The notes below the pieces were generated by a model. It was not told where the DNA came from and searched no databases. It was given only the letters and a program-made list of their open reading frames with translations. The position numbers were made by a program, and so were the translations under genes. From a virus, in the IMG/VR virus record IMGVR_UViG_3300027156_000310, positions 1 to 49,575 of that record: a stretch of 49,575 bases of DNA. One strand, given 5' to 3'. Each line of letters opens with the position of its first letter. The first letter of the stretch is position 1. This document shows, one piece after another, positions 3,343-49,444 of the stretch.

Positions 3343-3934
3343 TATTAATTAATCCAAAAAGTCTTTCAGCAAATACATCATGCGATTTTAAATCAGGATG
3401 CCCGCACGGTAGTTCATTGTAATAAAAATCATTTGTTTTAGTATTAAAAGCTATATCAAACTTAACATTATTCCAATTTTTTGTATTATTACAAATATCA
3501 TCGCTGAAAACATGAATACTATTGATTACTTTTTTAACTTTACCATTTAAATAGTAATTTGCTAGATTAACATGCATTAGTGTATCAAGTATGTCGTCTT
3601 CGTGTCTATGATACTTTGCAAAAAACTTTTGCCAAGTTTTGTCATTGTTCCAACTTGCAAGTTGTTCCCAATGAATTCCGTTCCATATACTACGACGCAT
3701 CGGATTAGACCAATTTATAACTATCAAGTCAGTGTCATATACAGGTGTTTCAAGTATACTTACTGCTATCTCTTTTTGTGATCTTCCGGTATCTGCTTTA
3801 TTAACAACAGGTATATTTAATTTTTTTCCTAATACATTTGCAAATCCTAACTTACTAGGACCGGTATCAAGAGTACAATCTGGCAATCCTAGTCCATATG
3901 CATGACTACACCCAAAGACTACTAGTCTACTCAT
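3335..3934 (-). CDS. SGNH/GDSL-hydrolase-like protein
   Basis: The 199-residue protein begins with a strand followed by FGCSHAYG, the position of block I (GDS) in SGNH hydrolases, with the nucleophile Ser retained. Near residues 60-75 it has a strand ending INWSNPMRR (block III N-like). Close to the C-terminus is GHPDLKSHDVFAERL, matching the block V pattern where Asp and His complete the triad. SGNH enzymes are esterases or deacetylases, often acting on acylated glycans. There is no signal peptide, so it is expected in the cytoplasm. It sits between radical SAM genes with 8-nt overlaps on both sides. The fold assignment is likely; the reaction is inferred and could be O-acyl removal or transfer on a glycan. 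Confidence 0.7.
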   Translation of the reverse strand: MSRLVVFGCSHAYGLGLPDCTLDTGPSKLGFANVLGKKLNIPVVNKADTGRSQKEIAVSILETPVYDTDLIVINWSNPMRRSIWNGIHWEQLASWNNDKTWQKFFAKYHRHEDDILDTLMHVNLANYYLNGKVKKVINSIHVFSDDICNNTKNWNNVKFDIAFNTKTNDFYYNELPCGHPDLKSHDVFAERLFGLINNV

Positions 3935-19298: not shown

Positions 19299-19305
19299 TA
19301 TTTAT
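19299..19305 (-). promoter_or_regulatory. T4-late-type promoter motif
   Basis: The minus strand carries ATAAATA at 19305-19299, 18 nt upstream of the ATG at 19281 with AGGTGG in between. It matches the core of T4 late promoters (TATAAATA) recognised by gp55, and overlaps the stop codon of the giant gene. Confidence 0.5.
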
Positions 19306-22300: not shown

Positions 22301-25300
22301 TATCTGTAACATTTCCAACAACAAATTGACTTGATAGCTGCTTTACTCCATTTACACTAACAGAGTAAGTATTTGTTCTCAGATCGATTGGCCATTTAAG
22401 GTAGAACAATTCTGCGGCGCCAGTTCCTGTAAATGTCTGTGTTTCATCAAGTTCTGTAAACAAGTAAGAACCCGATACTCTATCAAATTTCATTCCAATG
22501 CGAGTGCTTCTTACAACTCCATTACCTAGAACTGCAACTGCTTTTGCTTGAGAACCACCCTCTGCTATACTGCCTTCTATTGTTATTTCAGGAGCAGTTA
22601 AATATTTTCCTCCTGTATTGTCAATGATAACCGACGAAACTCTTCCTCTGCTTAGGTACGCTCTTGCTGTAGTTCCGTTGTTATTATCAATTCTAACCAA
22701 CGGTGTTGACGTATATCCGCTGCCGCCATCTGCTACATCGATTCTAATAATATCATAACCGTTATTATCAAGCCACGACTTGAATGGATATTCTAAGTAT
22801 TTGTCAGCAATGCCTGTTAAAACTCCGTCAATAACGCTAATACCATTAGTCTCAATTTCTCTAGTTTCTAAGTTATAACTTGGAGGCAAGTCAAAGTCTG
22901 TAATCAGAGATTGAGTAGGCTCAGTATATGTATAAGAACTGATATATTCTCTAACCTTTGAAGCATACGGTTTTACTTCATTAACGTAATCTTCGTAATT
23001 TTCTAGGTTGTCATTTTTAAATGTGACAGACTGAGATAGATTTCCTAGATTGTGCTTTGCTCGTATAAAGCTAGTTTTAAATGCCCAATCTATGAAAAGT
23101 TGTTCGCTAAATGCATATCGTACACTAGCAAAGAATAATTTGTTCCACTCAACTTCTAAGTCACCAATGAATATGTCATCTCTTAGTGCAGTTAGTATGT
23201 TTCGTAATTCCACAACAGGTTCTCTGTCATAAAATGCAGTATCATATATGTTTGCATCATATCCACTTGTAGTTGTGATAAAGTCATAAAGTCTTGAAGC
23301 TAGTTGTATAGTTCCGTTTTCTCTGCCTATTGTTTTATAATTTATTGTATAATCTTCAGTTAGTTGATCATCAATTTTTTCTAATAGCAACCAACCGCCA
23401 GAACCAATAGTGTTAATTTTAACAACATCACCTATGTTATTATCTAACCCAAACAATTCGTATGATTCGTTTACAGTTTGATTTATTGCAGTTTGAGAAC
23501 CGTATCCTGCTGCATACCAATCAGCATATGTCCAATAGTTTTGAGTGTTATACTTTTGACTATCAACTCTTGTCCACGATCTAGCCGATTTGTTATAATC
23601 GTAAATTGCCCAACGGCCTACTATTTCGCTATCAGACTTAACAAGTACACTAAACTTTCTTGGGGTTAATGTTGTATTGCTAGGATAATTTTTACCTTTT
23701 GATCTTACTAATACAGAAGTTATTTGTCCTAGATTATTGATAGTTGTTTTAAATATAGCCCCTGTTCCTGACGAGCTTGTAATTTTAATTTCAGGAGCAA
23801 TAACGTAGCCTCTTCCAGGGTTTACAATATTAACAGAAATTATTCTTCCATCTTCGACAACTGGACTTAATACGGCTTGCTCAGTTTTTGCAACTATAAC
23901 AAATCTTAAATCTTCCAAAGTATCGACTGTGGTATCATACCGTCCGCTGTTTTCATTAGGAATTTCTTCTTGACTTAGCAACATTGACATATCGTAGTTG
24001 TCTACTATCGAATTTTGCAACAATACAGAATTTGCTCTTTCAACAACTTGTTTTAGTGCTTCTGTTTTATTAATAAACATGCCCTGTCTTGGAGAATTTA
24101 ATATACCATATTTTTGTTTAACAGAGAGTGCAGTATCGGGCACAGGTCTGTCGTTAATGTCGTATCCAATTAAACTATCAAACCACTTTGTTTCAACTTT
24201 TTCGTTAGGCTTGCTACTTGCTAAGTTTTCAGTTAATAGTTGATACTCAGAATGAATGTTGTTTATATTAGTCAGGTCATTTGTTATTGTGAAATGTAAT
24301 GCAGTTTTTGTGCCTTCGATGTAACTACGGGCATTGTATAATGCAAATTTGTCTTGTCCAATTAGTGCAACAAAAGTATAACCAGTAGATGCAGGATCTT
24401 CAATTAACTTTGCAACATCAAACGCAGACAGTTTTCTGTTATTTTTAAAAGGAATAGTCTGAGGATTTTTAACCCAGAAGTAATACTTGTAGTTAAAAGT
24501 TCCTGTTTCTATGTTATAAACTTTACGTAAACTATATGCATTTAGATGTAGAGGAGTTCCAGTTATACCGTTAGCAAAGCCTTCGTTGGTTTCAGTAATT
24601 CTGTTATATTCATCCGGAGTTAAATCTGATTCAGTCCATTCGTACACATCAATTGACGCACCATCAACTAATTTATTCCACCATGCAGTTCTGTACTGAG
24701 TAGTTCCTTGATAAGGATTGTACCAGCTAGCTTTAGAAATGTCCCACCACAGTCTTCCTACTTCCGATGTTGTCCATGAATTTAATTTGTCAACAAATAC
24801 GTCAGGATAATTTTGATTTATATCTTGTTCAGCAACTGAGTAAACAGCTGGGTCATACCAAGTTTTATAGAAAATTTCACTATCGGCAACCCCGGCAATT
24901 TTTCCTTGTCGTGGATCTATCAAGTCGATTGTTCCAAATGTAGTATTCTTTTCAGTATTATATAAGAACACTTTCTTAATATATTTTACATCAACCTTAT
25001 TAGTTTGCGATGTAATTGTTGACCAACTATTGGTATTTCTTTCTGCTCTGCAATCAACTAACATTCCAATTGTAGAGTCTTCATTTGTTATTTCTGGAAA
25101 TCCTATATAGATATGGTTGTCAACAATTTTAAAATTAGTATTATCCTGTAGTCTAGTATTTCTTGTATAAATTAGATCTTCTGCGTATACAAAGTTATCT
25201 CCAATTTCCTGGAATACATACAACTTTCCTAAATCTTCAGCGACTGTCATAAATCTTGTAGAATTGTTATCAAATACAGTCGCATTATTATCAAACAACA

Positions 25301-28300
25301 TTCTAACTTTTGAATCGCCGTTTTTGCTTGATATTACAAGTTTGTTACCAGCAAAGTCAATGCCGGTGCCAAACGATTCGTTATGTTCAGTAAACGGACT
25401 CGGAATAGATTGTTGTAAAGCAAATACACCGTTTACTTGTTTGTAAATGTATACTATTCCTGTATCAATTCCGGTTAAGTTATTATGTGGAGCACCAACA
25501 GCTATCTTTGTTCCTGTATCGTTTATTGCTAAACTAAATGCATAATCTTCAACGCTGTCATCAGTATCTATATACTGACCAAACTGCCAGCGACTGCCTT
25601 CGTTTCTATACAACCCAATTCTATTTAAAATTGTTGGATCGCCGTTTTGAGTTAGTCCAGTATCTAATGATCCTGATAACACTATCATATCACCTAGCGA
25701 ATTAACATCAAAATTATATCCGATGCCTGTTGCATTTACCAATCCCGTACTATCACTATCGCCATCGATTACATCTACAGTATTAGGAATAAAGCCAACA
25801 TGTTCGATGTCTGAGCTCAATGAAATCCAGTTAGTTAAGTCAAAAATTCCTGGTGCTAGATTTGTACTTGCTTTATAAAGATAGCCTTCGTAATAAACGA
25901 TTTCGTCTACATAGTACTGTGTTGTTTCTGAGAAGGAACCTTTGTACATTCTATTACGTGAGTATTTCCAGTTGCTGTCGGTATACTCAACAAAATAAAT
26001 TCTACCTGTGCTACTGCCCGGTGCACCTATAAATATTTTAGGTCCGCTGTAATGATTACGTATCTGTATATTAGCGCCAAACCGTTCACCGTTCATTGGA
26101 TCCGGACTTGTAAATGTTGTAATTAGATTGTATAAACTGTTAGGTTGTTTTTCATATAGATATACAATACCTTGAGATGACAACCCGCTACTACTACCAG
26201 TAGCATCACCTTCTATCAAGTAAGTTGGTGTCCAGTCTTGCGACAAATCAGAAATTGTGCTGTTATCACCTGCAATAGTTTTATTTGCTTTCCATAGAGT
26301 ACCACGATCGCTAACAATATCGCCTTCTGCGTAACTACCAGTAGGATTTAAAATTCCTACATAACGAGTTTTAACATTACCAGCATTTGGTGCTCCAACT
26401 GCAATGTACTTTCCGTCAGGACTAATTGCTACGCTGTATCCATACTTAGAGCTACTATCATGTATAGAAGTCGAAGGCAGGATCTCTTGATATTTTGTCT
26501 TTGCAATAGATTCGTTAAATCTATAATATAAGTTAACGTATCCGTTTACTCTGTCCGGCGAACCAACTACAATTGTAGAGTTTGAAGAAGATACGTCAAA
26601 CGAAGATGCAAATCCGTCACCGTCGCCGGTTGGATTGATAGACTCTTCTTGCAGTGCAAATACCGAAGAGTGTTTGTACACAGCCCATTGGCTATCTACT
26701 GCATCATCTACCCAAATTTTATCACTCAAGTCATCTTGTACTTTATAGTACTGATTGTTAATGTCATTGGAATCAGCAAATCTTCTAGATCTAAAAATAG
26801 ATACTACACCGCTAGAATCTTCGTAAGGAGTGTTAATATCAATACTAACCGGAGTTTCAGTTACAATGCTTACCTTATCTAGTACTACATCTACAATTTT
26901 ATGAAAGCCATTTATGTTTAAATTGTTGTTGTATATTCCGATTATTTCATCTTTTTCAAATGGTACGTAGTTTTCAAACTGTAATGTAAATCCGCTTGGT
27001 GTTCCGTTTTCGTAGAACTTTCTATCAGTTGGAGTGTATGACTGAATCCCAATAATCTTTTGATCTGAGTTTACATGTCTTACTACATCCCATGTGTTGT
27101 TTTTTTCAACTATCCAAACGTGATTACCTAGCTCAACTTCTTCAATGTTTAAAGTTAGTAATTCGTCGTATGTGTTAACTACATAATCAACATCATCGTT
27201 TCTAACATATCCACTATCTCTTGTGAATGTTGTTGTGTTTGTAGTTAGAGGAAACGGCTTATGGGTATAATCGTCTGGCTTCAGATAAACATCATAAGAA
27301 GGAATTTCGTAAACTAAATCAGTTCTAGATGGTGACAAACTACTAACCAATTCAAAAGGTTGTGGCTCTAGTCTATACTTTTCTTCATCTATTTTGTATT
27401 CAACTTCTTTTATGTTATTAACCGAACCATACTGCCCAAGAGCAATAGCCCATTCTTCAAAGAATTCTAAACTATCTTTGTCCGCAGAGCTCAGTGCATC
27501 AAACAGTTTTGTAAGAGAATTTTTTGTTCCTTTTTCTGCAATAAAGCCTTGATAAAACTTATACTGACTTACGTCATCGTTAATGATGTTTGCAAGGTAT
27601 TCACGCTTTTGATATCCGATTAAGTGTTGTCCTAAACGTTGTTGCTCTGTATCAAAGTTGTCAGTGTCTAGATCATAAAAATCAGTAAACTGATTAACTT
27701 TATAATCCCAGTTTGCATATAAAGACGGTGTCGGTTTCTCGTCTAGTAGATTCCAATGATTAGCATCAAAGTAATCAGTACTTGTGTGTTTCATATTTGA
27801 ACTGTAATAAAATTCTTTGTATTTTACTAAGTCACCTATTGAATAGTCAGTCCATGTATTCCAATTACTAACGTATGCTCGATCGTAGAAAAATCCCGGT
27901 ATGTTTAATCCACCATTCCAGTTGTCAGTTCTGTAACCTACTAACTTTATTCTTTCTTGTCTATATCCCGGAATCATATCATAAATGATATCATTAAAGA
28001 CTGTAACGTTGTCTAATAGCACAACATGTTCTGTTTGTACTAACGGTAGTCTAACTAAGAAAATACCTTCGGCTGTTTGTATTGGTTCCAATCCGTAGGT
28101 ATTAGCATTTGTTCTATATATAGAAGAAAATTCTTTAGATAGTCTCTCGCCAGTTCCTGTTAAAATGTTATAATCGTAAAAATTATCAAATATGTCATCA
28201 ACCATATGATAATCTTTAGAGAATTTTACACTGTTTCCAACAGGACTTATTGTTATAACCGATCCAGTATCCCAACCTTGAGTAACCCAGAACATAAATT

Positions 28301-31300
28301 CTTTTGCACATAGACGCATATCTTCTACTGCTTGAGTTTCTGAATTATAATAGTCAAAGACGAATCCTTGCACTTTACAATAATTCTCGTAACCTAAAAT
28401 AAAATCAACTACTTCTTGAATTGATGCAAATGTATATCCGTAAGGATATGCAACAACGCTATCTTCAAAAGTTGTTCTAAATACTGCACTTACTCCGCCA
28501 ACAATAGGAAGTGAAGATAGTTTTGTAAACTTAGTTTCTTCAAACGCCGATGAACTTTCGTGTGTTACTTTTGTTCTATAATAGCTGTTTTCATATCTAA
28601 CAATAATACCAGCTACATACTGCTTGTTTTCATCCCATTCTACAAACGACTCGCTTATTCCTCCAACGTTAACCACCGGATCAACATTTCTTTCTCTGTG
28701 AGGATTTATGTAAAACACAGATGATTCTTTATCATATCCTGATAAGATATATCCATTTTCATTTTTTTCAAATATCATACCACTTAGCGATGGAACATCT
28801 AATGCGCTGCTTGTGTTTAATACAATTTGATAGTTTTCCTCTGGTACAAAGACGTTTCCTTTGTTTAACGGTGTTCTGCTATCTAACACTAGTTTTAGTT
28901 TTGTTTTGTCAGCAAAACCACCTAAGTAAACTGCTAATTGTAAGTTTAGATTTTTTAGTTGTTCTTTATAAGAAGAAAAGTTTGCAGAATGTTTGGTTGT
29001 TATATAGTTGGCAACATAATTAACCAATCCAGATGTTTGTACTAACTCTTCAGTTTCTAGCGTACTAGGAAATACCAACTCGCTGAGTTGTATTCTCTTG
29101 TTAGTTTCTGTATAAACAAAATTTCCAGCAACGTCTTTGGAAATTCTAGATAAGTCAAAACCTATACCAAACAACTTAGAAGGTTGTAACAACACCCAGG
29201 CAGTTATAAATGCAAACGGAAATTCCGAGCTTCTTCTCCATGCAGTTTCGACGTATGCTTCATCACCAAATGCAAACTGACCTCTTGTTTTTAGTCTGTC
29301 AACATTTTGTGCTAATCCGCAGTCAACTGGACTTAGCAATTGTCCATATTCGTTTACAGGAATATTGTTTAACAATCCAGGTCTATAAAACTGTACATTT
29401 CGTTCTATTAGTTTGCCTGGCTGTCTAATAATTCCTTCTTGCAAGTCGTACCACAATACAGTGTTATTGTTTGTGTACGGGGCAGGTCCGTATACATCTT
29501 CCCACCAAGTAGGTTGTATTGTTAAACCTAACATTTCCCAAGGATGAGTGTGCGGTCTATCAGTATCAAAATAATGTTTATAGATACTTCTCCAAAATCC
29601 GTCTAGATTGTTTCCGTTTATATCTGAGCTATACTTGTAGTTGTAAGAAAATCCGTCGGAAATGTCCCACGCATCATTTTTTACATAATCCGGAGACCCT
29701 GCTACTTCTAACCATTGAGCAAAGTCTGATAACATTATGTTGTTTAGACTTTCTTTTTTAAATCCAGTGTCTCTGTTTACACCATTGATAAAATCAAAAA
29801 TGTTAAGTTTAGACACATCATAGGACGACTTAATGTTGTTGTAAATTCTTCTTTCTAGTTCAAGTATTAGTTCGTCACGATAGTCATTGTATGCTAGTAT
29901 TAAACTACCGTCGTGTCCTTGAATCATAGTCTGAGGAGTAGAATATGTAGTATCCACAATTAATGAAGGAATGTATTTAGGATACAATCCTAGTTTAGTA
30001 GGTGTAGGAGGAACAAATGTTCCGTTAGTGCTTTCAAATTCGTGTACTTCAACTGTATCATTTGAATCTAAATCTAATGTTACGTAAACAAATTCGTTTT
30101 CAAAAGTATAGTCAACTCCGTGTACTAACTGTTCACCATTTAAGTACACTAATATAGATCTAGTAGATAGTGTTTGTAAATTAAATGTCTTTGACATTGC
30201 AAAATACGCAGGTCCTGGATACTCTACAGTTGTAGATGAAACAGTCGATGACTGGTACCCTAACATATCACTAAAATAAAATGAGTTTGTTGAAGTTTTA
30301 TCTTTGTTAATTCTAGAAAGAATTAAGTCTACATGCTCTTTAACTGAACCATGAAATCCTGAATTTTCTGCTTCGTTTAAAAATGTTCTTTTAAACTTAG
30401 CGTATTCTTTTTTTGCATATCTTATAGATTTAATAATGTTAGCATCTTTGTCTGTGATATGGTAAAGACCTAGCGGCAACGGACCTGAGTGTTGTATAAA
30501 TTTGTTTCCATATGTAGATACGTTACCTAAGTCTCTTAAATTGCTTGCACCCGGAAACTCGCCTGCAAAGGTTCTAACATTTTCTATAATACTGCTAGCA
30601 TGATCATTTACTTCGCCTAGCGTAAATACAGATAGGCTTTCGTTTAATGGATTTTTTTCAAGGTTTGACGGAATCTCGTAGAATCCGTTTGCATTTTTTG
30701 TTGCACTACTGTATGCTTTAATTACTAACGAATCGCCTACTGTTAGATCATTATTAAAAATTACAACTGCTATATTGTTAACATTTTCAATAGTATACTC
30801 ACTGGTTAGTTTTTGTTTTTTTCCGTTAACATAAACATATACAACCAAGTCAGTAAGCGATCCACTGTTGTCAAACATGTCGACAGCAAAATTATTTAAT
30901 TGTGTATCTACTATAGAATTTTTAATTACAAACTGTTTACTGTTTGCATTTGCTTTAACCCATCCGTTAACAAAAGAATAAGCGTCTCCTGAAGGATCAT
31001 ATAGTTTTAGATATCCTTTATCAGTGGTTACGCTTCCGCCGCGATGAACAGCAGACTGGTACTCAAAGGAATCGTTGGTTAAATCAAAGATAAATTGTAT
31101 ATCGCCGATATTGGCAATGTTTTGGTAACTTAATGGAAAACCTAGTTCAACATCATTTGACCCTGTACCTATTTTATAGCTAAAAACTTTATTACCAGCA
31201 AATGTTGATGCTGGATAATAAGTTAAATCATTAAAAGCTATACCAGTTTTATCAAACAAATCAAATAACGGGGTTTGATTTACTGATGTTTTTTCCTGTG

Positions 31301-33017
31301 ATCGAGTCCAAGTGCCGCTTGTATAGGAAAACATTTTTCCTTTGTAGCTGTCACCATTTAGAATTAATACAGTTTCGTTTTTGTTAGGAACAGAATCTGC
31401 GGTTTCGATTAACGATATTTGTCTGCGACCGTTGTGTGTTATAAACCTTACTTCGTAAATTCTACCATTTACTAAAATGTCAGTGTCGGCTGTAAACAGC
31501 ACTCTAGTACCGTTAACAAGATCAATGCCGTCAACGTTATAGCCTAGACTTCCTTCAATTGTGCTAAAAGCATCAACTGTAAATGTATCAACTACATCAA
31601 CAGGCTGTTTTGCTTTAGTGCCGTGATTAAACAGTTTTAATCCTGCTTCAAATTCTATAATAGGTCTTTTTGCTCTAGCATCTTGATCGAGCACAATTTC
31701 GTTATTACTTGCTTCTGCACTTGCAACAATTACATCCTTGTGGAACCATCTGTTATATCGTGTCCACGGATTTTTATCAGCACTTGCTCTATTAATAACA
31801 ATGTAATCTTTTGTTCCCGGAAAACTAGTTGCGTCTTCAAACGGATATATGTCAAATGCAGTGCCATCAAACGGAATGTTATATTCAGATGTAAAAATTG
31901 CAGGAACTTCTAGTGATTCGTCAGATATAAGAACGATTTTATTTCCTACACCCTCGACATAAAAATATTTTCCAGCATATGTACTTGGAGTTACATTACC
32001 AGCAAAAGACACTTTCATGCCGTTGCTTAATTCTACGCCATTGCTAGCTTTGTAGGTCTTTTTTCCAAGTATTTCAGTATCAACATTTATTGATGTGTTT
32101 TCTTCAATATTAGAAATATTAAAAATACCGCTAGTGTTAATGTTGTTTTTGCTTATATAATACAACGTTGACGGAGCGTTTGCAGGAATAGTGAATTCTA
32201 TTATGCCCTTTTCAATAAAGGTTGCATCTGTAATTTTGCCATCTTCGTCATATTTTACAATACCGTCATTGTACAGTGCAGAAACGTTTTCACCAGCAGT
32301 GTAATCAATTCCTCCAGTATCAGCTAGAATGTATGAGCTGTTTTCTGTAAACGATCTATTTACAAAAAATGCAACAGGATGTCCCGGAGTGTTAATTTCA
32401 AATCTGTATGTTACTTCTTTATACAAGTCAAGTCTAGGATTTCTTGTAAATCCGTTAGGAGAAAATACATATGCATAATTGTCGCCTTCATCTGAAAGAG
32501 ATATTGTATATGTACTAACAACTTCAGACGATTGTCCGGAAATCACGATAGGATCTGGACCCATCGGCAACCAATAATACTCTCTAAAGTTTACAAATTT
32601 ATCCCAGTCTATGTGAGGGTTCCAAGAATAAAATTCCTGGCTATTTAAAATACTATGGTTAGAAACAGTTGATTTGAAACTTTTTAATTGTCCGAGATAA
32701 TCTCTGTATCCTTTTAGAAATGTTACATTATCAAGTTCGTCCTTAGCAACCACAACTGGTTCGAATTGATAATTTTCTCTGTCCGCAGAGAAGTCTGCCA
32801 AGTAGCTATCTGATGCAGTCGTAGCTTTAGAAAACCGTCTACCAGCAAACGCACTAAGTTTTTCAACTACACCGGGGGTAGTCATTTGATCAAGTGTGCT
32901 GCTTAAAAACTTTTTGTTAATGTTTGTTCTAAAGTATTTAGGTAACAAATTAATAGATGAAGTGTTACTATTTCCGATAGGAAGTGGGAAGTCATCTTGT
33001 ATATTGTTGTTTGCCAT
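19302..33017 (-). CDS. Giant virion structural protein (gp7 position, 4571 residues) with FG-GAP-like repeats
   Basis: This single frame takes 13.7 kb. The N-terminus (FRTNINKKFLSSTLDQMTTPG, then NPHIDWDKFVNFREYYWLP near 135) is characteristic of giant baseplate-region proteins of marine T4-like phages. Its place after gp6 corresponds to T4 gp7, which is about 1,030 residues. At roughly residues 2120-2610 are repeated units such as AISPDGKYIAVGAPN, ERFGANIQI, KIFIGAPGSS and INDTGTKIAVGAPH, which look like an integrin-type FG-GAP propeller. Around 3066 and 3436 are GRGYVIAPEIKI and GSGYTSTPLVRI units, and throughout are beta modules with a VNG turn (YVYVNGKKQ, SVSVNGVKQ, VYLNGEQL). A ribosome site CGGAGG lies about 12 nt before the ATG. 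It may form wedge periphery and adhesive arms. Confidence 0.8.
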   Translation of the reverse strand: MANNNIQDDFPLPIGNSNTSSINLLPKYFRTNINKKFLSSTLDQMTTPGVVEKLSAFAGRRFSKATTASDSYLADFSADRENYQFEPVVVAKDELDNVTFLKGYRDYLGQLKSFKSTVSNHSILNSQEFYSWNPHIDWDKFVNFREYYWLPMGPDPIVISGQSSEVVSTYTISLSDEGDNYAYVFSPNGFTRNPRLDLYKEVTYRFEINTPGHPVAFFVNRSFTENSSYILADTGGIDYTAGENVSALYNDGIVKYDEDGKITDATFIEKGIIEFTIPANAPSTLYYISKNNINTSGIFNISNIEENTSINVDTEILGKKTYKASNGVELSNGMKVSFAGNVTPSTYAGKYFYVEGVGNKIVLISDESLEVPAIFTSEYNIPFDGTAFDIYPFEDATSFPGTKDYIVINRASADKNPWTRYNRWFHKDVIVASAEASNNEIVLDQDARAKRPIIEFEAGLKLFNHGTKAKQPVDVVDTFTVDAFSTIEGSLGYNVDGIDLVNGTRVLFTADTDILVNGRIYEVRFITHNGRRQISLIETADSVPNKNETVLILNGDSYKGKMFSYTSGTWTRSQEKTSVNQTPLFDLFDKTGIAFNDLTYYPASTFAGNKVFSYKIGTGSNDVELGFPLSYQNIANIGDIQFIFDLTNDSFEYQSAVHRGGSVTTDKGYLKLYDPSGDAYSFVNGWVKANANSKQFVIKNSIVDTQLNNFAVDMFDNSGSLTDLVVYVYVNGKKQKLTSEYTIENVNNIAVVIFNNDLTVGDSLVIKAYSSATKNANGFYEIPSNLEKNPLNESLSVFTLGEVNDHASSIIENVRTFAGEFPGASNLRDLGNVSTYGNKFIQHSGPLPLGLYHITDKDANIIKSIRYAKKEYAKFKRTFLNEAENSGFHGSVKEHVDLILSRINKDKTSTNSFYFSDMLGYQSSTVSSTTVEYPGPAYFAMSKTFNLQTLSTRSILVYLNGEQLVHGVDYTFENEFVYVTLDLDSNDTVEVHEFESTNGTFVPPTPTKLGLYPKYIPSLIVDTTYSTPQTMIQGHDGSLILAYNDYRDELILELERRIYNNIKSSYDVSKLNIFDFINGVNRDTGFKKESLNNIMLSDFAQWLEVAGSPDYVKNDAWDISDGFSYNYKYSSDINGNNLDGFWRSIYKHYFDTDRPHTHPWEMLGLTIQPTWWEDVYGPAPYTNNNTVLWYDLQEGIIRQPGKLIERNVQFYRPGLLNNIPVNEYGQLLSPVDCGLAQNVDRLKTRGQFAFGDEAYVETAWRRSSEFPFAFITAWVLLQPSKLFGIGFDLSRISKDVAGNFVYTETNKRIQLSELVFPSTLETEELVQTSGLVNYVANYITTKHSANFSSYKEQLKNLNLQLAVYLGGFADKTKLKLVLDSRTPLNKGNVFVPEENYQIVLNTSSALDVPSLSGMIFEKNENGYILSGYDKESSVFYINPHRERNVDPVVNVGGISESFVEWDENKQYVAGIIVRYENSYYRTKVTHESSSAFEETKFTKLSSLPIVGGVSAVFRTTFEDSVVAYPYGYTFASIQEVVDFILGYENYCKVQGFVFDYYNSETQAVEDMRLCAKEFMFWVTQGWDTGSVITISPVGNSVKFSKDYHMVDDIFDNFYDYNILTGTGERLSKEFSSIYRTNANTYGLEPIQTAEGIFLVRLPLVQTEHVVLLDNVTVFNDIIYDMIPGYRQERIKLVGYRTDNWNGGLNIPGFFYDRAYVSNWNTWTDYSIGDLVKYKEFYYSSNMKHTSTDYFDANHWNLLDEKPTPSLYANWDYKVNQFTDFYDLDTDNFDTEQQRLGQHLIGYQKREYLANIINDDVSQYKFYQGFIAEKGTKNSLTKLFDALSSADKDSLEFFEEWAIALGQYGSVNNIKEVEYKIDEEKYRLEPQPFELVSSLSPSRTDLVYEIPSYDVYLKPDDYTHKPFPLTTNTTTFTRDSGYVRNDDVDYVVNTYDELLTLNIEEVELGNHVWIVEKNNTWDVVRHVNSDQKIIGIQSYTPTDRKFYENGTPSGFTLQFENYVPFEKDEIIGIYNNNLNINGFHKIVDVVLDKVSIVTETPVSIDINTPYEDSSGVVSIFRSRRFADSNDINNQYYKVQDDLSDKIWVDDAVDSQWAVYKHSSVFALQEESINPTGDGDGFASSFDVSSSNSTIVVGSPDRVNGYVNLYYRFNESIAKTKYQEILPSTSIHDSSSKYGYSVAISPDGKYIAVGAPNAGNVKTRYVGILNPTGSYAEGDIVSDRGTLWKANKTIAGDNSTISDLSQDWTPTYLIEGDATGSSSGLSSQGIVYLYEKQPNSLYNLITTFTSPDPMNGERFGANIQIRNHYSGPKIFIGAPGSSTGRIYFVEYTDSNWKYSRNRMYKGSFSETTQYYVDEIVYYEGYLYKASTNLAPGIFDLTNWISLSSDIEHVGFIPNTVDVIDGDSDSTGLVNATGIGYNFDVNSLGDMIVLSGSLDTGLTQNGDPTILNRIGLYRNEGSRWQFGQYIDTDDSVEDYAFSLAINDTGTKIAVGAPHNNLTGIDTGIVYIYKQVNGVFALQQSIPSPFTEHNESFGTGIDFAGNKLVISSKNGDSKVRMLFDNNATVFDNNSTRFMTVAEDLGKLYVFQEIGDNFVYAEDLIYTRNTRLQDNTNFKIVDNHIYIGFPEITNEDSTIGMLVDCRAERNTNSWSTITSQTNKVDVKYIKKVFLYNTEKNTTFGTIDLIDPRQGKIAGVADSEIFYKTWYDPAVYSVAEQDINQNYPDVFVDKLNSWTTSEVGRLWWDISKASWYNPYQGTTQYRTAWWNKLVDGASIDVYEWTESDLTPDEYNRITETNEGFANGITGTPLHLNAYSLRKVYNIETGTFNYKYYFWVKNPQTIPFKNNRKLSAFDVAKLIEDPASTGYTFVALIGQDKFALYNARSYIEGTKTALHFTITNDLTNINNIHSEYQLLTENLASSKPNEKVETKWFDSLIGYDINDRPVPDTALSVKQKYGILNSPRQGMFINKTEALKQVVERANSVLLQNSIVDNYDMSMLLSQEEIPNENSGRYDTTVDTLEDLRFVIVAKTEQAVLSPVVEDGRIISVNIVNPGRGYVIAPEIKITSSSGTGAIFKTTINNLGQITSVLVRSKGKNYPSNTTLTPRKFSVLVKSDSEIVGRWAIYDYNKSARSWTRVDSQKYNTQNYWTYADWYAAGYGSQTAINQTVNESYELFGLDNNIGDVVKINTIGSGGWLLLEKIDDQLTEDYTINYKTIGRENGTIQLASRLYDFITTTSGYDANIYDTAFYDREPVVELRNILTALRDDIFIGDLEVEWNKLFFASVRYAFSEQLFIDWAFKTSFIRAKHNLGNLSQSVTFKNDNLENYEDYVNEVKPYASKVREYISSYTYTEPTQSLITDFDLPPSYNLETREIETNGISVIDGVLTGIADKYLEYPFKSWLDNNGYDIIRIDVADGGSGYTSTPLVRIDNNNGTTARAYLSRGRVSSVIIDNTGGKYLTAPEITIEGSIAEGGSQAKAVAVLGNGVVRSTRIGMKFDRVSGSYLFTELDETQTFTGTGAAELFYLKWPIDLRTNTYSVSVNGVKQLSSQFVVGNVTDKTKTYNREIGYIEFMDPPANESLIQITYNKNIKLLSAADRINFFYNPSTGMLGKDLSQLMDGVDYTGTILDSIDFGTQQGFDVSGYGALPWDTFSNTYDDEIFVCDGSTNTFELTNPLEDGLEYNVYLNNVRIDDPEYDYSTVLSNPNALMQTLVGDGETTVVSINEELISIVDGDVVVIRKSTSDGSFVPTNDSYDTAIEGGNLAYTTAAGVSSGEINIDGDGFVTTTTSRGPEELVPGQILDTLDIQVYHRTTDGTGIIGVANFKIDGDSTSFALPSVPQSVDSVVVKIDNDIVSSDLYSLDLKNNLLLFDNDISTLGSNLSIMSIGTNGIDLLDTGTFVSDGSTLVVTTSAVWQTELSAFVTKNGEVLSEGTAYTLVQSSNTSDYPNRVQIVFDFTVLAENNFVQWTIYGSELKTYSQMVIDRTFEADGLTNYHKFDTTNIPIPFNALPISHKILVTVNDRILNPGYNISFTTTSARVYQIEEWQFQDTTSIDDTDIIVFADGVQLLSTQYSFDPVNATIEILFSTVAPAGSKLEIFVLKNADYWTLDTQITFEALPSQTLNLDFLQADDHVYATSIVYDDSAAVVDSTTQDLVVHSSDNNVVQFVTRNTNIRDAFVSNDVFRLDFDGHSSIECRIASIKYVLSDSIQFAIAPSSGEVVEIYTFSNHDVNDFNRISYDVLTTTSVSAGSSDYVKRNLLSSGIVELRSPITSGNYAWVIHNGELLTPNVDYTLTDNRSAVKLLRTPIENDTIDILQFSANPVVPKFGYRMFKDIMNRTHYKRLNQNNSYVLKDPLNYYDARISLVSSAGIAIPSKEMNKPGVVFIEGERIEYFEVVGNYLLQLRRGTLGTGIKNVYNPGATLYGQGIDENIPYRDRTLTQTFIGDGTSTDFVLDFTPASVNEIDVIVAGRKLRKTSLDLFVATIDQDSPEADIVLPPEFTVDVEAGTISLATAPAENIYINVVRRIGKVWNETGKALKDSENDISRFLRGATIQLPK

Positions 33018-44188: not shown

Positions 44189-44205
44189 AATATTATTCTC
44201 CATAT

Positions 44206-44213
44206 GTATTTAG
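44206..44213 (-). promoter_or_regulatory. T4-late-type promoter motif (CTAAATAC)
   Basis: The minus strand reads CTAAATAC at 44213-44206, 18 nt upstream of ATG 44188, in front of GGAG. It is one base off the ATAAATA core. It lies back to back with the plus-strand TTGACA box starting at 44214. Confidence 0.45.
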
Positions 44214-44242
44214 TTGACAAAATTAAGTGCATATATTATATT
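44214..44242 (+). promoter_or_regulatory. sigma70-type promoter for gp55
   Basis: TTGACA (44214-44219), a 17-nt spacer, then TATATT (44237-44242). It is about 25 nt before ATG 44267, and AAGGA is in the leader. The plus-strand frame can be read back to 44204, but a start there would overlap this promoter. Confidence 0.75.
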
Positions 44243-44266
44243 AGTATTAACTCAATAAGGAAAAAG

Positions 44267-45094
44267 ATGAAAAAAGTCAATTATTTAAATAACAAAGATA
44301 TGCTAGCAGAAATACATAAAAGTAAAAACACATTTTCAAGTTTTACTGATCTAGAATTTTCAGAGTACGATATAATCGTGTCAGATGTTTCTAAAATTAC
44401 TTCTAAAATTGTTATAGAAGCAAAACAAAATAGAGCAAAACGGTTGTCTTCAAAAGACTACGAAGTTAAAAAAATAGAAAACAACAAGATAAAACTATCG
44501 GATTGTGAAATAGATATTAAATCAATTAAAAAAACTGATTTAGTATTTAGAGTCATGACGTTTGATCATATACCCGACGAACCCGGTAGAAAGAAAAACC
44601 CAAAAAGTGTAGCCGATGGTAAGATAAAACTAAATTTCCCACCTTTTCAACATTGGAAGTTTAACGAAGACGGCGAACTAGTGTGCGTGGGTAAAAGTCA
44701 TTGGGTCGGTGGCATGGAGAATGGCTATTTTTCCAAAGAACATGGTGTGGCAACACGAAAACTTGCACTTATGTGGATGAAGCTGTGTGAGCGTTATGCT
44801 ACAAGAGGAAACGTTCGTGGTTATACATACAATGACGAAATGAAAGGTCAAGCAGTACTACAGCTAACACAGATAGGATTGCAGTTTGACGAATCAAAGT
44901 CTAATAACCCGTTTGCATATTATACCGCAGCCGTAACTAACAGCTTTGTTCGTGTTATAAACTTAGAAAAACGCAATCAAAATATTCGTGATGACATTTT
45001 AGAAATGAATAATTTAAATCCTAGCTTTACTAGACAGTACCAAGGCGAGTTCGAAGCTGCTACAAAACGTTATATAGATTCTCAAGAAGAATAA
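44267..45094 (+). CDS. 55: Late transcription sigma factor gp55-like
   Basis: With ATG 44267 the protein has 275 residues; AAGGA lies 6-8 nt upstream. Residues about 165-255 contain the sigma-like core: LMWMKLCERYATRGNVRGY, then DEMKGQAVLQLTQIGLQFDE and PFAYYTAAVTNSFVRVINLEK, like region 2 of small sigma factors and like gp55 of T4-like phages. gp55 binds host RNA polymerase and directs it to ATAAATA-type late promoters, together with the sliding clamp and gp33. T4 gp55 is 185 residues; here about 90 more lie at the N-terminus, Lys- and Ser-rich (SSKDYEVKKIENNK). The gene has its own sigma70-type promoter, consistent with production before late genes are read. Confidence 0.86.
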   Translation: MKKVNYLNNKDMLAEIHKSKNTFSSFTDLEFSEYDIIVSDVSKITSKIVIEAKQNRAKRLSSKDYEVKKIENNKIKLSDCEIDIKSIKKTDLVFRVMTFDHIPDEPGRKKNPKSVADGKIKLNFPPFQHWKFNEDGELVCVGKSHWVGGMENGYFSKEHGVATRKLALMWMKLCERYATRGNVRGYTYNDEMKGQAVLQLTQIGLQFDESKSNNPFAYYTAAVTNSFVRVINLEKRNQNIRDDILEMNNLNPSFTRQYQGEFEAATKRYIDSQEE

Positions 45095-45149: not shown

Positions 45150-46163
45150 TTGTTTAAAAAGGCAGCAGTGTTCACTGACATACATTTTGGTATGAAAGGT
45201 AACTCTAAGATTCACAATCAAGACTGTGAAGACTTTGTTGATTGGTTTATTCAAACCGCTAAAGAAAATAACTGCGACACAGGATTGTTTTGTGGCGACT
45301 GGAATCACAATAGAAACAGTCTTAACCTAACAACAATGGATAGCGGGCTTAGGGCGTTGGAAAAACTCGGGGCTGCATTTGAAAACTTTTATATATTTGC
45401 TGGCAATCATGACTTGTATTACAAAGATGCAAGAGACATCAAGTCAACTGAGTTTGCAAAACATATTCCTGGTATTACAGTAATTAACGACGTTACAGTA
45501 TTTGATGATGTAGCACTTGTTCCATGGTTGGTTAATGAAGAATGGAAACAAGTAGAGAAGTTGCAAGCAAAGTACGTGTTTGGACACTTCGAACTTCCTT
45601 CGTTTTATATGAATGCTATGGTGCAGATGCCGGACCACGGCGAACTCAAAGCAGAACACTTCAAGAACCAAGAGTATGTGTTTAGTGGACACTTTCATAA
45701 ACGACAAATACAAGGTAAGATACACTACATTGGTAATGCATTTCCTCACAACTATGCCGATGCATGGGACGATGCACGTGGAATGATGATACTGGATCGT
45801 GAAAACGATGCAGAACCTCGGTACATTGATTGGCCAGATTGTCCAAAGTATCGTACAATTAAACTATCACAGCTAATCGACGAGAAGGATACGCTTATCA
45901 AGCCTAACATGTATCTGCGTGTTACACTCGACCTGCCTATTAGCTACGAAGAAGCAAGTTTTGTAAAAGAAACATTCATGGAACAGTATAAATGCAGAGA
46001 GATAACTCTTATTCCACAAAAACAACTTGAAGAAATCACTACAGAACTCGATATTGCACAATTTGAAAGTGTAGATCAGATTGTAAGCAACGAGATCATG
46101 TCTATTGACAGCGAGAACTATAATAAAAATCTACTATTGAACATATATGGTGAACTACAATGA
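45150..46163 (+). CDS. 47: Recombination endonuclease subunit gp47 (SbcD/Mre11-like)
   Basis: The 337-residue protein is a calcineurin-type metallophosphoesterase with the ordered motifs FTDIHFG (D10, H12), FCGDWNHN near 49-56, AGNHD near 84-88, FGHFEL near 146 and SGHFHKR near 178-184. These residues bind two metal ions in the Mre11/SbcD family. With gp46 it forms the nuclease-ATPase complex that resects DNA ends for recombination-dependent replication. I take the TTG at 45150 as start, because GGAG lies 7 nt before it and the encoded residues FKKAAVFTDIH fit the family start. The stop overlaps the gp46 start in ATGA, so the two subunits are coupled. T4 gp47 has 339 residues, so the length is normal. 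Confidence 0.92.
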   Translation: MFKKAAVFTDIHFGMKGNSKIHNQDCEDFVDWFIQTAKENNCDTGLFCGDWNHNRNSLNLTTMDSGLRALEKLGAAFENFYIFAGNHDLYYKDARDIKSTEFAKHIPGITVINDVTVFDDVALVPWLVNEEWKQVEKLQAKYVFGHFELPSFYMNAMVQMPDHGELKAEHFKNQEYVFSGHFHKRQIQGKIHYIGNAFPHNYADAWDDARGMMILDRENDAEPRYIDWPDCPKYRTIKLSQLIDEKDTLIKPNMYLRVTLDLPISYEEASFVKETFMEQYKCREITLIPQKQLEEITTELDIAQFESVDQIVSNEIMSIDSENYNKNLLLNIYGELQ

Positions 46164-47938
46164 TTCGCATCAAGGATTTGACTGTTAAGAACTTTATGAG
46201 TGTGGGTAATGTTACCCAAGCTGTCGACTTTAATCGTGAACAGCTTACGTTGGTACTTGGTGAAAACTTAGATCAAGGCGGAGACGATACTGGTTCACGT
46301 AACGGTACTGGAAAAACTACTATTGTTAACGCACTATCATATGCATTGTATGGACAAGCACTAACTAGTATTAAAAAGAACAATCTAATCAATAAAACCA
46401 ATAACAAGGGTATGTTGGTTACCCTTAACTTTGAAAAAAACAGTATACTATATCGTATCGAACGTGGAAGATCGCCTAACATCTTAAAGTTTTATGTAAA
46501 CGACATTCAACAAATTGACGAATCTGCTGATGAAAGCCAAGGCGATAGCAGAGAAACTCAAAAAACTATCAATGACTTGCTAGGAATGAGCCACAATATG
46601 TTTAAACATGTTGTAGCACTTAATACATACACTGAACCATTCCTTAGTATGCGAACAAATGACCAAAGAGAAATCATTGAACAGCTTCTTGGCATTACTA
46701 TCCTGTCCGAAAAAGCAAACTTGTTAAAAGATCAAGTTAAATTTACAAAAGATCTTATAACAGAAGAAACATTAAAGATTAATGCTGTACAATCCAGCAA
46801 CGAAAAGATCGGTCAAAGTATTAACACTCTGATAAGTCGTCAACGTGCATGGGAAATAAAAAGAAAGCAGGATATTGAAAATCTATCGACTGCATTAGAA
46901 GAACTTGCAAAACTTGACATTGAAGTCGAGTTGGATTTGCATGATCAACTGTTAAAGTGGAACGATCGTAATACTCGTGTTAATGCATTAAAGAAAGAAC
47001 ATGCAACTCTTGAAACTGCACTTACTAGAGCAGATACTAGTGTTCAGAAAGTACAAAAAGACATCAAAGAACTAGACGATGCTGTGTGTTATGCATGTGG
47101 TCAAGCATTGCATGATAATAAAAAACAGGAAATTCTTTCAAAAAAAGATAAAGAATTGTCGGACGCTATGAAATATCTGTCCGAAGTTGCAGACAAATTT
47201 GAAAAAGTCAACAACGAATTAACTGAAATCGGCGATGTTAATGCAAAGCCAAACACATTTTATGAAACTGCAAAAGAAGCCTACGAGCATAGAAACAACG
47301 TAGACAACCTACAAGCAGCGATCGTGCGTAAAGAACAAGAAGAAGATCCGTATCAAGCACAGATAGACGATTTAAAAAACACTGCATTGCAAGTAATCGA
47401 CTGGTCAGGTGTTAATAAGTTAACAGAACTTAAAGAACATCAGGATTTCTTGCTTAAACTGTTAACTAATAAAGATTCCTTTATTAGAAAAAAGATTATT
47501 GATCAAAACTTAGCGTATCTAAACAATAGACTTACATATTACCTTGATAAACTAGGGTTACCACATCAAGTTGCGTTTTTAAATGACCTGAGTGTTGAAA
47601 TTACACAGCTAGGTCAAGACTTGGACTTTGATAACTTATCAAGAGGTGAGCGTAATCGTTTAATACTAGGTCTGAGCTTTGCTTTCCGCGATGTTTGGGA
47701 AAGTTTGTACCAAAGCATTAACTTGTTGTTTATCGACGAGCTTATTGACAGCGGAATGGATACAGCAGGAGTTGAAAATAGCTTAGGAGTTCTAAAAAAG
47801 ATGGGAAGAGAACGTAGCAAAAACATTTTTCTTATCTCGCACAAAGACGAACTGGTTGGTAGAGTTAATAATGTGTTGAAAGTTATTAAAGAAAACGGCT
47901 TTACCAGTTACGCAAACGACATTGATGTAGTAGAATGA
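46160..47938 (+). CDS. 46: Recombination endonuclease ATPase subunit gp46 (SbcC/Rad50-like)
   Basis: The 592-residue protein has a Walker A motif (GSRNGTGKTT, near 46-55), long coiled-coil arms (about 170-470) and a zinc hook CYAC near 309-312 at their apex. After the second arm come the ABC signature LSRGERNRL (about 492-500) and the Walker B segment LLFIDELID near 523. These are the parts of Rad50/SbcC. It uses ATP to drive end processing by gp47 and tethers DNA ends through hook dimers. T4 gp46 is about 560 residues. It starts in an ATGA overlap with gp47 and its own stop overlaps the next gene in ATGA, so the three are one unit. Confidence 0.93.
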   Translation: MIRIKDLTVKNFMSVGNVTQAVDFNREQLTLVLGENLDQGGDDTGSRNGTGKTTIVNALSYALYGQALTSIKKNNLINKTNNKGMLVTLNFEKNSILYRIERGRSPNILKFYVNDIQQIDESADESQGDSRETQKTINDLLGMSHNMFKHVVALNTYTEPFLSMRTNDQREIIEQLLGITILSEKANLLKDQVKFTKDLITEETLKINAVQSSNEKIGQSINTLISRQRAWEIKRKQDIENLSTALEELAKLDIEVELDLHDQLLKWNDRNTRVNALKKEHATLETALTRADTSVQKVQKDIKELDDAVCYACGQALHDNKKQEILSKKDKELSDAMKYLSEVADKFEKVNNELTEIGDVNAKPNTFYETAKEAYEHRNNVDNLQAAIVRKEQEEDPYQAQIDDLKNTALQVIDWSGVNKLTELKEHQDFLLKLLTNKDSFIRKKIIDQNLAYLNNRLTYYLDKLGLPHQVAFLNDLSVEITQLGQDLDFDNLSRGERNRLILGLSFAFRDVWESLYQSINLLFIDELIDSGMDTAGVENSLGVLKKMGRERSKNIFLISHKDELVGRVNNVLKVIKENGFTSYANDIDVVE

Positions 47939-48189: not shown

Positions 48190-48624
48190 ATGAATTGGAC
48201 ATATAAAGGTAAAGAAGTCATAGAAATACCAGAAGACATCGAAGGCTTTGTATATCTTATTACCAATTTAACAAATAATCGCAAGTACATAGGCAAGAAA
48301 TTAGCACGATTTAAAACTACTAAGCCACCGCTTAAAGGCAAAAAGAACAAACGTAGAGGCTACAAAGAAAGCGATTGGCGAGACTATTGGGGATCGTCAG
48401 ACAGGTTAAACGAAGATGTAGCAGCACTAGGCACTGATAAATTCACAAGAGAAGTACTTTACTTTTGCAAAAGCAGAGCAGAAATGAGCTACATAGAGGC
48501 AAGAGAACAGTTCGAACGTAGAGTTTTAGAAACAGATGAGTATTATAACGGTATCATCAACGTTCGTGTAGGCGGCAGCGATAAACTTAGGGAAGCATTG
48601 TTAGAGCATGGCAAGAAGTATTGA
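48190..48624 (+). CDS. GIY-YIG-type nuclease-like protein
   Basis: The 144-residue protein has GFVYLITNLTNNRKYIGKK at about residues 19-37, the GIY-YIG pattern with the two Tyr-containing strands 10-14 residues apart (VYL...YIG). A DYWGSSDRLNEDV motif follows near 68-80, and FTREVLYFCKSRAEMSYIEAREQF near 88-112 contains a Glu in the expected metal-binding place. These are features of free-standing GIY-YIG nucleases in T4-like phages. It is a single domain without a visible DNA-binding extension, so it may be a repair or restriction-type nuclease or a homing enzyme. It lies 3 nt after the small basic gene. No clear Shine-Dalgarno precedes ATG 48190. Confidence 0.75.
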   Translation: MNWTYKGKEVIEIPEDIEGFVYLITNLTNNRKYIGKKLARFKTTKPPLKGKKNKRRGYKESDWRDYWGSSDRLNEDVAALGTDKFTREVLYFCKSRAEMSYIEAREQFERRVLETDEYYNGIINVRVGGSDKLREALLEHGKKY

Positions 48625-48886
48625 TTGGCAAACTGTACAAAAGCGACATAAAATTTATAAAGAAAACGATCAAGAAAGAAAAGGCTGGGACCATCGTGCA
48701 TCAGACAACGCTGCACTAAGAAAAAATAAAATATGGGCAGTTAAAGGCAAGTATTACGGAAAACCTTTAAGCGATCTTCCACTAAACTATTTAGGTTGGA
48801 TTGTTGATAACTTTGAAACAATATCGATACATAGGCAAATGGCAGCCGAAGAGCTACAACGTAGATATAAAGATATAGGCAAATAA
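48608..48886 (+). CDS. Small protein with DUF3820-like motif
   Basis: The 92-residue protein has a central segment KGKYYGKPLSDLPLNYLGWI near 46-65 followed by NFETISIHRQMAAEELQRR. This matches the DUF3820 family (also labelled putative quorum-sensing-regulated virulence factor), which is common in phages and usually starts FGKYKGKPLSDLP. Its biochemical role is unknown; family members are often near DNA-metabolism genes. The N-terminus is charged (QKRHKIYKENDQERKGWDHR). It overlaps the nuclease gene by 17 nt, so it is likely translated by reinitiation. It is the last gene before the structured non-coding stretch. Confidence 0.72.
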   Translation: MARSIDWQTVQKRHKIYKENDQERKGWDHRASDNAALRKNKIWAVKGKYYGKPLSDLPLNYLGWIVDNFETISIHRQMAAEELQRRYKDIGK

Positions 48887-49063
48887 TCCAACACAAAAGG
48901 TTGGCGGGCCAGTTTATAATACCGCTGTGGAAAAACCTGTAGAGATACAGGACACGTAACATACTAATGGACTCATCTAGGTTAACCATTACCATTGGAG
49001 TACCCGTCGGTATAGATAGATTGTTGGCTGTCAAAAAAAAACTGCACATTACACATAAAAACC

Positions 49064-49151
49064 GTTTGCACTAGGAACGAAGCAACGGATAAAAGTGTAG
49101 TGTATGCACTCTAAAAGAATTTTATTAAAATTTTTTTATAGCGTATGCACT
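49064..49151 (+). repeat. Repeated GTWTGCACT motif
   Basis: GTTTGCACT occurs at 49064-49072, GTATGCACT at 49102-49110 and again at 49143-49151, with 38 and 41 nt between starts. A shorter ACTGCAC lies near 49041. They are direct repeats within the non-coding region and may be binding sites for a DNA-binding protein. Confidence 0.5.
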
Positions 49152-49258
49152 ATATTTTGATGTCGACGTAGGTTGGGAAAGGTCAGAGCCCATTGTGTAG
49201 CAGAAAACACCTACTTCCAAGTCTCGGCTGGTGATACTCACATAATGTTTGAGAAGGA

Positions 49259-49278
49259 GGAACCTGTTAACAGGTTCC
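49259..49278. repeat. Perfect 20-bp palindrome
   Basis: GGAACCTGTT followed by its exact complement AACAGGTTCC. It can act as an 8-bp hairpin with a TTAA loop in RNA, or as a symmetric site for a dimeric protein. No T-run follows, so it is not a usual intrinsic terminator. Confidence 0.7.
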
Positions 49279-49408
49279 GTCTGACCAGATTAATCTACAT
49301 AATATTAATTGCATGTGTTACACACATGCTTAATCATTAAGATAAAGATAATATGTGTTGAGCGATAGCGATAACACAGTTGAACGTAGTTCGACTTTAA
49401 AGTTCTTC

Positions 49409-49415
49409 ATAAATA
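49409..49415 (+). promoter_or_regulatory. T4-late-type promoter motif before the last gene
   Basis: ATAAATA in the context TTCATAAATAATA, 30 nt upstream of ATG 49445, with AAAGGA between them. It fits a gp55-dependent late promoter and is the only one seen on the plus strand. Confidence 0.6.
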
Positions 49416-49444
49416 ATATAAATGCGTTTAAAGGAATAACCAAA

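Follow-up and report, generated by a model that had tools for sequence, protein, structure and literature searches.

GOLLD and ROOL are large phage RNAs that build RNA-only cages, and GOLLD combines a constant 3' region with a variable 5' region (PMC12286853). In the virulent Vibrio phage ICP1, a lncRNA of ~800 nt encoded in a gene-free stretch is the most abundant ICP1 transcript (PMC7567579). The RNA described here likewise occupies a gene-free stretch of a phage genome; however, while the ICP1 lncRNA is known by its transcription, this one was recognised through its homologues and its structure.

The window (i.e., the whole 49,575-base virus record IMGVR_UViG_3300027156_000310) is T4-like phage DNA. 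Its + strand encodes a structured RNA that closes the gp55-gp47-gp46-(X)-SegE operon, a position that is typical of a large group of uncultured T4-like aquatic phages. The RNA was new relative to Rfam 15, the phage collections and the literature searched, in which no published description was found, and it would add a family to the few large structured phage RNAs.

The locus and its homologues

The operon and the gap that follows it contained these features:

44204-45094, late sigma factor gene (gp55)
45150-46163, gp47 gene
46160-47938, gp46 gene
Between the gp46 and SegE-like genes, small ORF (X)
48190-48624, + strand, SegE-like GIY-YIG gene (Pfam PF19835, E = 4.8e-34), the usual upstream neighbour of the RNA
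48608-48886, + strand, 92-aa ORF inserted between the SegE gene and the RNA
48887-49305, + strand, class A structured non-coding RNA, defined by nhmmer homologues, covariation, G-U/A-C asymmetry and fold z
49311-49329, + strand, terminator-like hairpin 1 after the RNA, from sequence, with its 3' block conserved
49354-49378, + strand, hairpin 2 after the RNA (TGTGTT..GAGCGATAGCGA..AACACA); the same motif follows class B RNAs
49379-49395, + strand, hairpin 3 after the RNA (GTTGAAC..GTTCGAC); the same block is found at class B loci
49408-49415, + strand, T4-like late-promoter-like site CATAAATA, preceding the downstream gene

The 558-nt stretch without a gene (48887-49444) that had drawn attention to this locus is real, being flanked by the end of the 92-aa ORF (48886) and the start of another ORF (49445), with no conserved ORF crossing it. 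It has three parts: the structured RNA (48887-49305; its 5' end is approximate, at most ~16 nt from the upstream stop codon), the terminator-like hairpins (49311-49395) and the late-promoter-like site (49408-49415). The three consecutive hairpins originally drawn at 49304-49395 are present, but they form a separate module rather than part of the RNA, and recur at class B loci. As a terminator, hairpin 1 scored on the - strand.

The 92-aa ORF had no relatives in Pfam, PHROGs or GenBank phages. It occurred in only four further contigs and stops 2 nt ahead of the first helix of the RNA; in locus L083 a different ORF occupies its slot. No gp46 relative from a cultured phage exceeded 50% identity (PA5oct group, Phosso, Atu_ph07), and the nearest SegE relative among the matches listed came from Methylophilales phage Melnitz-3 (73%). 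Elsewhere in the window, positions 3-7807 (- strand) held a run of radical SAM/SPASM genes, with PF04055 and/or PF13186 in five ORFs, one of which has a B12-binding domain; this run adjoins glycosyltransferase-like ORFs and is unusual for a phage. A single ORF of 4571 aa spanned 19302-33017 (- strand) in the tail gene region.

A scan with gp46 yielded 80 viral loci. By iterative nhmmer, many of these were seen to have the RNA type of the window (class A), several matching only its later part, and others had a different RNA (class B) in the same slot. Five loci were hybrids, in which the first ~44 nt were of class B and the remainder of class A. Those gp46-linked loci that lacked both classes all ended ahead of the slot, such that every contig reaching it has the RNA. 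Motif scans of IMG/VR, one per class, found at least 120 contigs each. The 304 loci assembled include some contigs counted twice, and abundance is a lower bound; on that footing, viral contigs of marine and freshwater origin gave more than 220 distinct sequences, and there were 229 distinct RNA sequences with identical repeats (see below) among the 304 loci listed. A number of contigs ended inside the RNA (L009, L016, L041, L042, L048, L055, L061, L062, L066, L070, L071, L077, L079 and L082); conservation between strains probably breaks metagenome assembly at this point, and the family is likely to be under-counted in contig collections.

The two classes were linked in two ways. A profile built from class B detected the 3' third of class A RNAs (best E = 2e-9). 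A covariance model for the 3' domain of class B found the class A locus L010 (E = 1e-4), aligning the two repeats and the hairpin in their proper register; the match to the window itself was in the wrong register, and that to L010 is the trustworthy one. Because of these links, classes A and B were taken as one family that combines a constant 3' domain with a variable 5' domain.

No relatives beyond this family were found in the collections compared. Comparison by blastn with 50,697 phage records gave no match to class A, class B, freshwater class A or hybrid RNA, and a scan of bacterial genomes with the class B motif gave six matches of 20-24 nt, approximately the chance level. The Rfam/Infernal search recommended with the original prediction returned no family at the gathering threshold in Rfam 15, whether for the window or for class A and class B loci, and nothing credible for cultured relatives or at permissive thresholds (E up to 10). 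Covariance-model matches to GOLLD, ROOL, group I/II introns and known ribozymes were all lacking, as were ARAGORN or Rfam matches to tmRNA or tRNA, and no tRNA was found in the window.

Fold of the class A RNA

A lack of compensatory changes in homologues would have counted against the original prediction that this stretch is structured; such changes were found in abundance and did not refute it, and folding energy was consistent with it. The + strand of the gap (48887-49444) folded to -151.2 kcal/mol, against -119.3 kcal/mol in dinucleotide shuffles (z = -5.7, 0 of 100 shuffles as low), while the value for the - strand was marginal (z = -1.9). The RNA proper (48887-49305) gave z = -4.0; among controls, two coding stretches of equal length gave -2.0 and +0.3, and another intergenic gap gave +0.8. 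Energies alone are insufficient, however, and the strong evidence for the RNA is comparative, not energetic. The helices were as follows:

48888-48893, + strand, 5' strand of P1 (CCAACA), pairing with 49022-49027 and pseudoknotted with P5
48902-48927, + strand, P2 hairpin (48902-48906:48923-48927)
48928-48956, + strand, P3 hairpin (inner stem 48936-48939:48948-48951)
48961-49013, + strand, P4 (48961-48967:49007-49013) with a variable apical part
49015-49032, + strand, P5 hairpin (49015-49019:49028-49032), the loop of which forms P1
49022-49027, + strand, 3' strand of P1, within the P5 loop
49051-49055, + strand, 5' strand of PK2, pairing with 49194-49198
49062-49088, + strand, P6 hairpin (49062-49066:49084-49088)
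49089-49161, + strand, P7, a long AU-rich hairpin (inverted repeat 49089-49124/49126-49161)
49168-49214, + strand, P8 (49168-49173:49209-49214) enclosing P9 (49174-49177:49189-49192)
49194-49198, + strand, 3' strand of PK2, identified by covariation
49259-49278, + strand, P10 hairpin between the repeats, a perfect inverted repeat that reaches 49255:49282 in relatives

Covariation was assessed across 89 class A sequences with an R-scape-like test, using a Fitch-based null on a FastTree tree, for which E-values are approximate. Pairs in P1, P4 and the long-range PK2 reached E = 0.00, and support at the level of whole helices was obtained for P1, P2, P3, P4, P5, P8 and P9; PK2 was the strongest covarying helix. 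Pairs were also counted in 67 class A sequences less than 88% alike, for ten helices and 53 pairs. Standard pairs occupied 97.8% of cells, and both-sided changes affected 497 cells, whereas shuffling gave 138 (none of 500 shuffles reached the observed count) and sliding the partners gave 27-66. Compensatory changes thus exceeded both the shuffled and the slid controls, as befits a conserved structured non-coding RNA. G-U pairs outnumbered A-C mismatches in the helices by 674 to 36, and therefore the functional RNA corresponds to the + strand. Given this strand asymmetry, the covariation and the fact that no gp46-linked locus reaching the slot lacks it, the candidate phage-encoded RNA is strongly supported. 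The longest + strand ORF within it had a median of 41 codons; with this, pervasive compensatory change and a freely varying length of P7, the RNA is non-coding.

Individual helices differed in their manner of change. P1 was paired in 99.5% of cells, with CG/AU/GC and CG/UA exchanges and E = 0.00 for 48888:49027; it joins the extreme 5' end of the RNA to the P5 loop and thereby creates a pseudoknot. P2 was 99.7% paired (CG/UA, GC/AU and CG exchanges), and all four inner pairs of P3 changed on both sides. P4 was 97.9% paired and three pairs in it or its apical part had E = 0.00. All five pairs changed on both sides in P5, in PK2 (98.2% paired) and in P6 (96.1% paired), the last having a near-invariant loop, AGGAACGA; near-invariant loops of the RNA also included GGAACGA and GGUCAGAG. 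P8 and P9 were 99.5% and 98.1% paired respectively, with exchanges of UA to CG and of UA to GC/AU. P10 was 99.8% paired but showed one-sided GU changes only. P7 was variable in length or nearly missing among homologues in the class A alignment (A1), alignments of the variable parts of the RNA being unreliable. In one subgroup of class A, P4 was lengthened and included an additional conserved segment, CTATCCTGAAAAATTGGAAGTGAGTCTGAG (L311, L252, L234, L278, L225, L321, L277, L316, L246, L320, L271 and L210).

The three-way junction originally drawn at 49168-49214 was therefore only partly upheld: 49168-49173:49209-49214 and 49174-49177:49189-49192 are supported as P8 and P9, but the rest is not, and 49194-49198 pairs instead with 49051-49055. 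This helix, PK2, is a second pseudoknot, linking the 5' half of the RNA to the P8/P9 domain. Two further helices suggested by folding the window were rejected. The first (49168-49173:49293-49298) was contradicted by covariation of P8 with 49209-49214 and had 92% pairing at a changing position; the second (49181-49187:49280-49286) paired well but never covaried significantly.

Twin repeats of the 3' domain

The 3' domain contains two direct repeats that flank P10:

49236-49246, + strand, repeat r1 (ACUC followed by the core ACAUAAU)
49293-49303, + strand, repeat r2 (AUCU followed by the core ACAUAAU)

The 7-nt cores of r1 and r2 were identical in 268 of the 280 loci listed, among which there were 20 different cores; this count took the best-matching pair per RNA and so leans to identity, a lean from which the class B alignment test is free. 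In that alignment, the repeats provided the second and third strongest covarying column pairs (E = 0.00), by identity. Columns 248/300 were A/A in 37 sequences and G/G in 33, while columns 252/304 were A/A in 35, G/G in 34 and C/C in one, and so, in all 70 class B rows (100%), r1 and r2 agreed at both core sites. When trees were inferred with the repeats left out, the history of each site required 15 or more joint changes, and none of the 70 sequences showed an intermediate state. The 5' flanks were invariant, as ACUC and AUCU in the class B alignment (A2) and as CUC and AUCU in the class A alignment (A1). The distance from r1 to r2 was 49-67 nt, without helical phasing. Repeats that covary by identity and not by complementarity, through so many parallel steps per site, are unusual, and this form of covariation restricts the mechanism to one in which a single partner recognises both.

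A partner for the repeats in cis was sought but none was found. No alignment column of the RNA was complementary to them, the RNA with its flanking sequence showed no enrichment of their complement, and within 10 kb there was no enrichment of either the core or its complement; together, these results point to a partner outside the RNA. Some single sequences suggested that the repeats lie in conserved hairpin loops or that their 5' flanks are joined by a helix, but neither arrangement was consistent across sequences. Gene conversion is unlikely to maintain the identity, because consistent differences persist right beside the cores. A partner that acted through base-pairing would be expected to tolerate G-U intermediates. 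Repeats that are identical within a phage and differ between phages are best explained by one type of partner that reads both, and a protein dimer fits a pattern this strict (A/G intermediates are absent), as well as a spacing that varies and repeats that have no complement.

Position, function and related systems

The gene upstream was co-oriented with the RNA in nearly all loci and was SegE-like in ~220 of the 304 loci listed; others included a resolvase-like gene and an inserted ORF, as in the window. The upstream stop codon lay between 15 nt before and 32 nt inside the start of P1 and the RNA, mostly at +10 (118 of 130 class A loci). No above-chance promoter was identified immediately upstream of the RNA, which makes processing from the operon transcript the simpler route, although there may be an internal promoter inside the upstream gene. 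Downstream, 91 of the 214 distinct loci listed had a next gene in the opposite orientation, and where this gene was on the same strand a late-promoter-like NATAAATA or NCTAAATA followed the RNA in 108 of 121 cases, compared with 25.8 in shuffles. Therefore, the RNA is not the leader of the next gene, as had been proposed, but a 3' appendix of the gp55-gp47-gp46 operon, and is probably derived from its 3' UTR. Since it is found in every gp46-linked contig that reaches the slot, marine and freshwater alike, the RNA is probably important to the infection cycle; its conservation rules out the remnant of a lost element that had also been suggested.

Whereas family, fold, strand and position are established, the transcription of the RNA, its release from the operon, its stability, its partner and its effect are inferred. 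We tentatively favour a stable RNA that acts in trans and offers its twin sites to two copies of the same partner, giving this reading a little under even confidence. The RNA would be freed from the 3' end of the operon transcript, with the hairpins at 49311-49395 serving as terminator, and would accumulate in stable form and act in trans. Its 5' domain and PK2 would form a scaffold, while the 3' domain would display r1 and r2 as two copies of one recognition sequence, each bound by one copy of the same partner, for which a homodimeric protein is the likeliest candidate. Whenever the preference of the partner shifted, both copies would have to change, leaving them identical within a phage and different between phages. 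It is possible, with more hesitation, that the RNA represents a new viral class of two-site receptor, in which identical sites on a pseudoknotted scaffold are locked in step by one symmetric partner. If so, each phage would have its own version of the core and the family would be a natural record of a co-evolving specificity code between RNA and partner. The partner may instead be a nucleic acid, or the repeats may be read at the DNA level.

The leading, though unlikely, alternative is that the RNA acts in cis as a 3'-UTR device that blocks exonucleases, thereby stabilising the gp55-gp47-gp46 mRNA or insulating it from the next unit, with the repeats binding a decay or termination factor. The RNA always lies at the very end of the upstream ORF on the same strand, is followed by terminator-like hairpins and a late promoter, and keeps its place despite replacement of the upstream gene or insertion of an ORF, which all speaks for a cis-acting device; however, it exceeds known stabilising 3' ends by far in size and intricacy, and such a device alone does not explain two identical, co-changing cores.

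Two other explanations seem improbable, each to a similar degree. The first concerns a homo-oligomeric structural RNA that builds particles in infected cells, as GOLLD and ROOL build RNA-only cages (PMC12286853), which the large size, pseudoknots, phage origin, variable 5' domain and constant 3' domain of this RNA would suit. Yet it is half the size of GOLLD and ROOL and has no Rfam match, and identity between cores differs from the palindrome switching of symmetric kissing loops, there being no complementary column. The second concerns a signal in the DNA (a replication origin, or a recombination or packaging site), for which r1 and r2 would be iteron-like protein sites. Direct repeats evolving in step, as r1 and r2 do, are a typical feature of sites read by a single DNA-binding protein, and the operon encodes recombination proteins. 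Against this, their spacing of 49-67 bp lacks helical phasing, there are only two copies with no others nearby, and the rest of the element shows RNA-type covariation with strong G-U/A-C asymmetry.

More doubtful still is a catalytic RNA, for instance an unrecognised self-cleaving or splicing ribozyme with the repeats marking the ends of a released piece; two pseudoknots and the near-invariant loops GGAACGA and GGUCAGAG recall catalytic RNAs, but no ribozyme or intron in Rfam matched, permissive thresholds included. That the RNA serves the downstream late gene as a 5' leader or riboswitch is scarcely credible, for although the next gene of the window is co-oriented and lies 140 nt downstream, co-orientation fails in 91 of 214 loci and most same-strand genes have a late promoter of their own, which refutes it for the family.

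The RNA can be set beside several known systems. Among cultured phages, the PA5oct/Paride-type Pseudomonas phages have a gene-poor slot of ~1.3 kb between the gp55-gp47-gp46 region and a baseplate-hub gene. This slot (in PA5oct, L087:9149-10540, i.e., NC_071039, record positions 75798-77189) is at least 99.5% identical across PA5oct-type records, including Paride; it begins with a perfect sigma-70 consensus (TTGACA-N17-TATAAT) and ends with several hairpins, its annotated small ORFs look doubtful, and it is a candidate large ncRNA in a culturable phage. Sinorhizobium phage Phosso has ~1 kb without annotated genes in a syntenic, hairpin-rich position (L088:9411-10424), which matched neither Rfam nor the window RNA, while Atu_ph07 has no gene-poor gap at the syntenic place. 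Homology of the PA5oct and Phosso slots with the RNA cannot be claimed, as there was no sequence or covariance-model match.

Omega RNA and HEARO are similar in that a structured RNA lies directly 3' of a nuclease-like gene, but here there is no obligate pairing with a nuclease, and no variable guide segment was noticed. SegE as an obligate partner, or an omega RNA-type guide, was rejected: SegE homologues in Melnitz-3 and S-CAM9 are without the RNA at the corresponding place, and the RNA also follows other genes. A further resemblance is to GOLLD and ROOL, which are likewise phage-encoded, large, multi-helix and pseudoknotted, GOLLD sharing the layout of constant 3' and variable 5' regions. 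However, these are ~650-800+ nt in length whereas the RNA described here is ~280-420 nt, and, unlike them, it resides on the gp55-gp47-gp46-SegE operon, has twin co-changing repeats and lies in a window where no tRNA was found. The RNA belongs, therefore, to the loose category of large phage RNAs, but outside the GOLLD and ROOL families.
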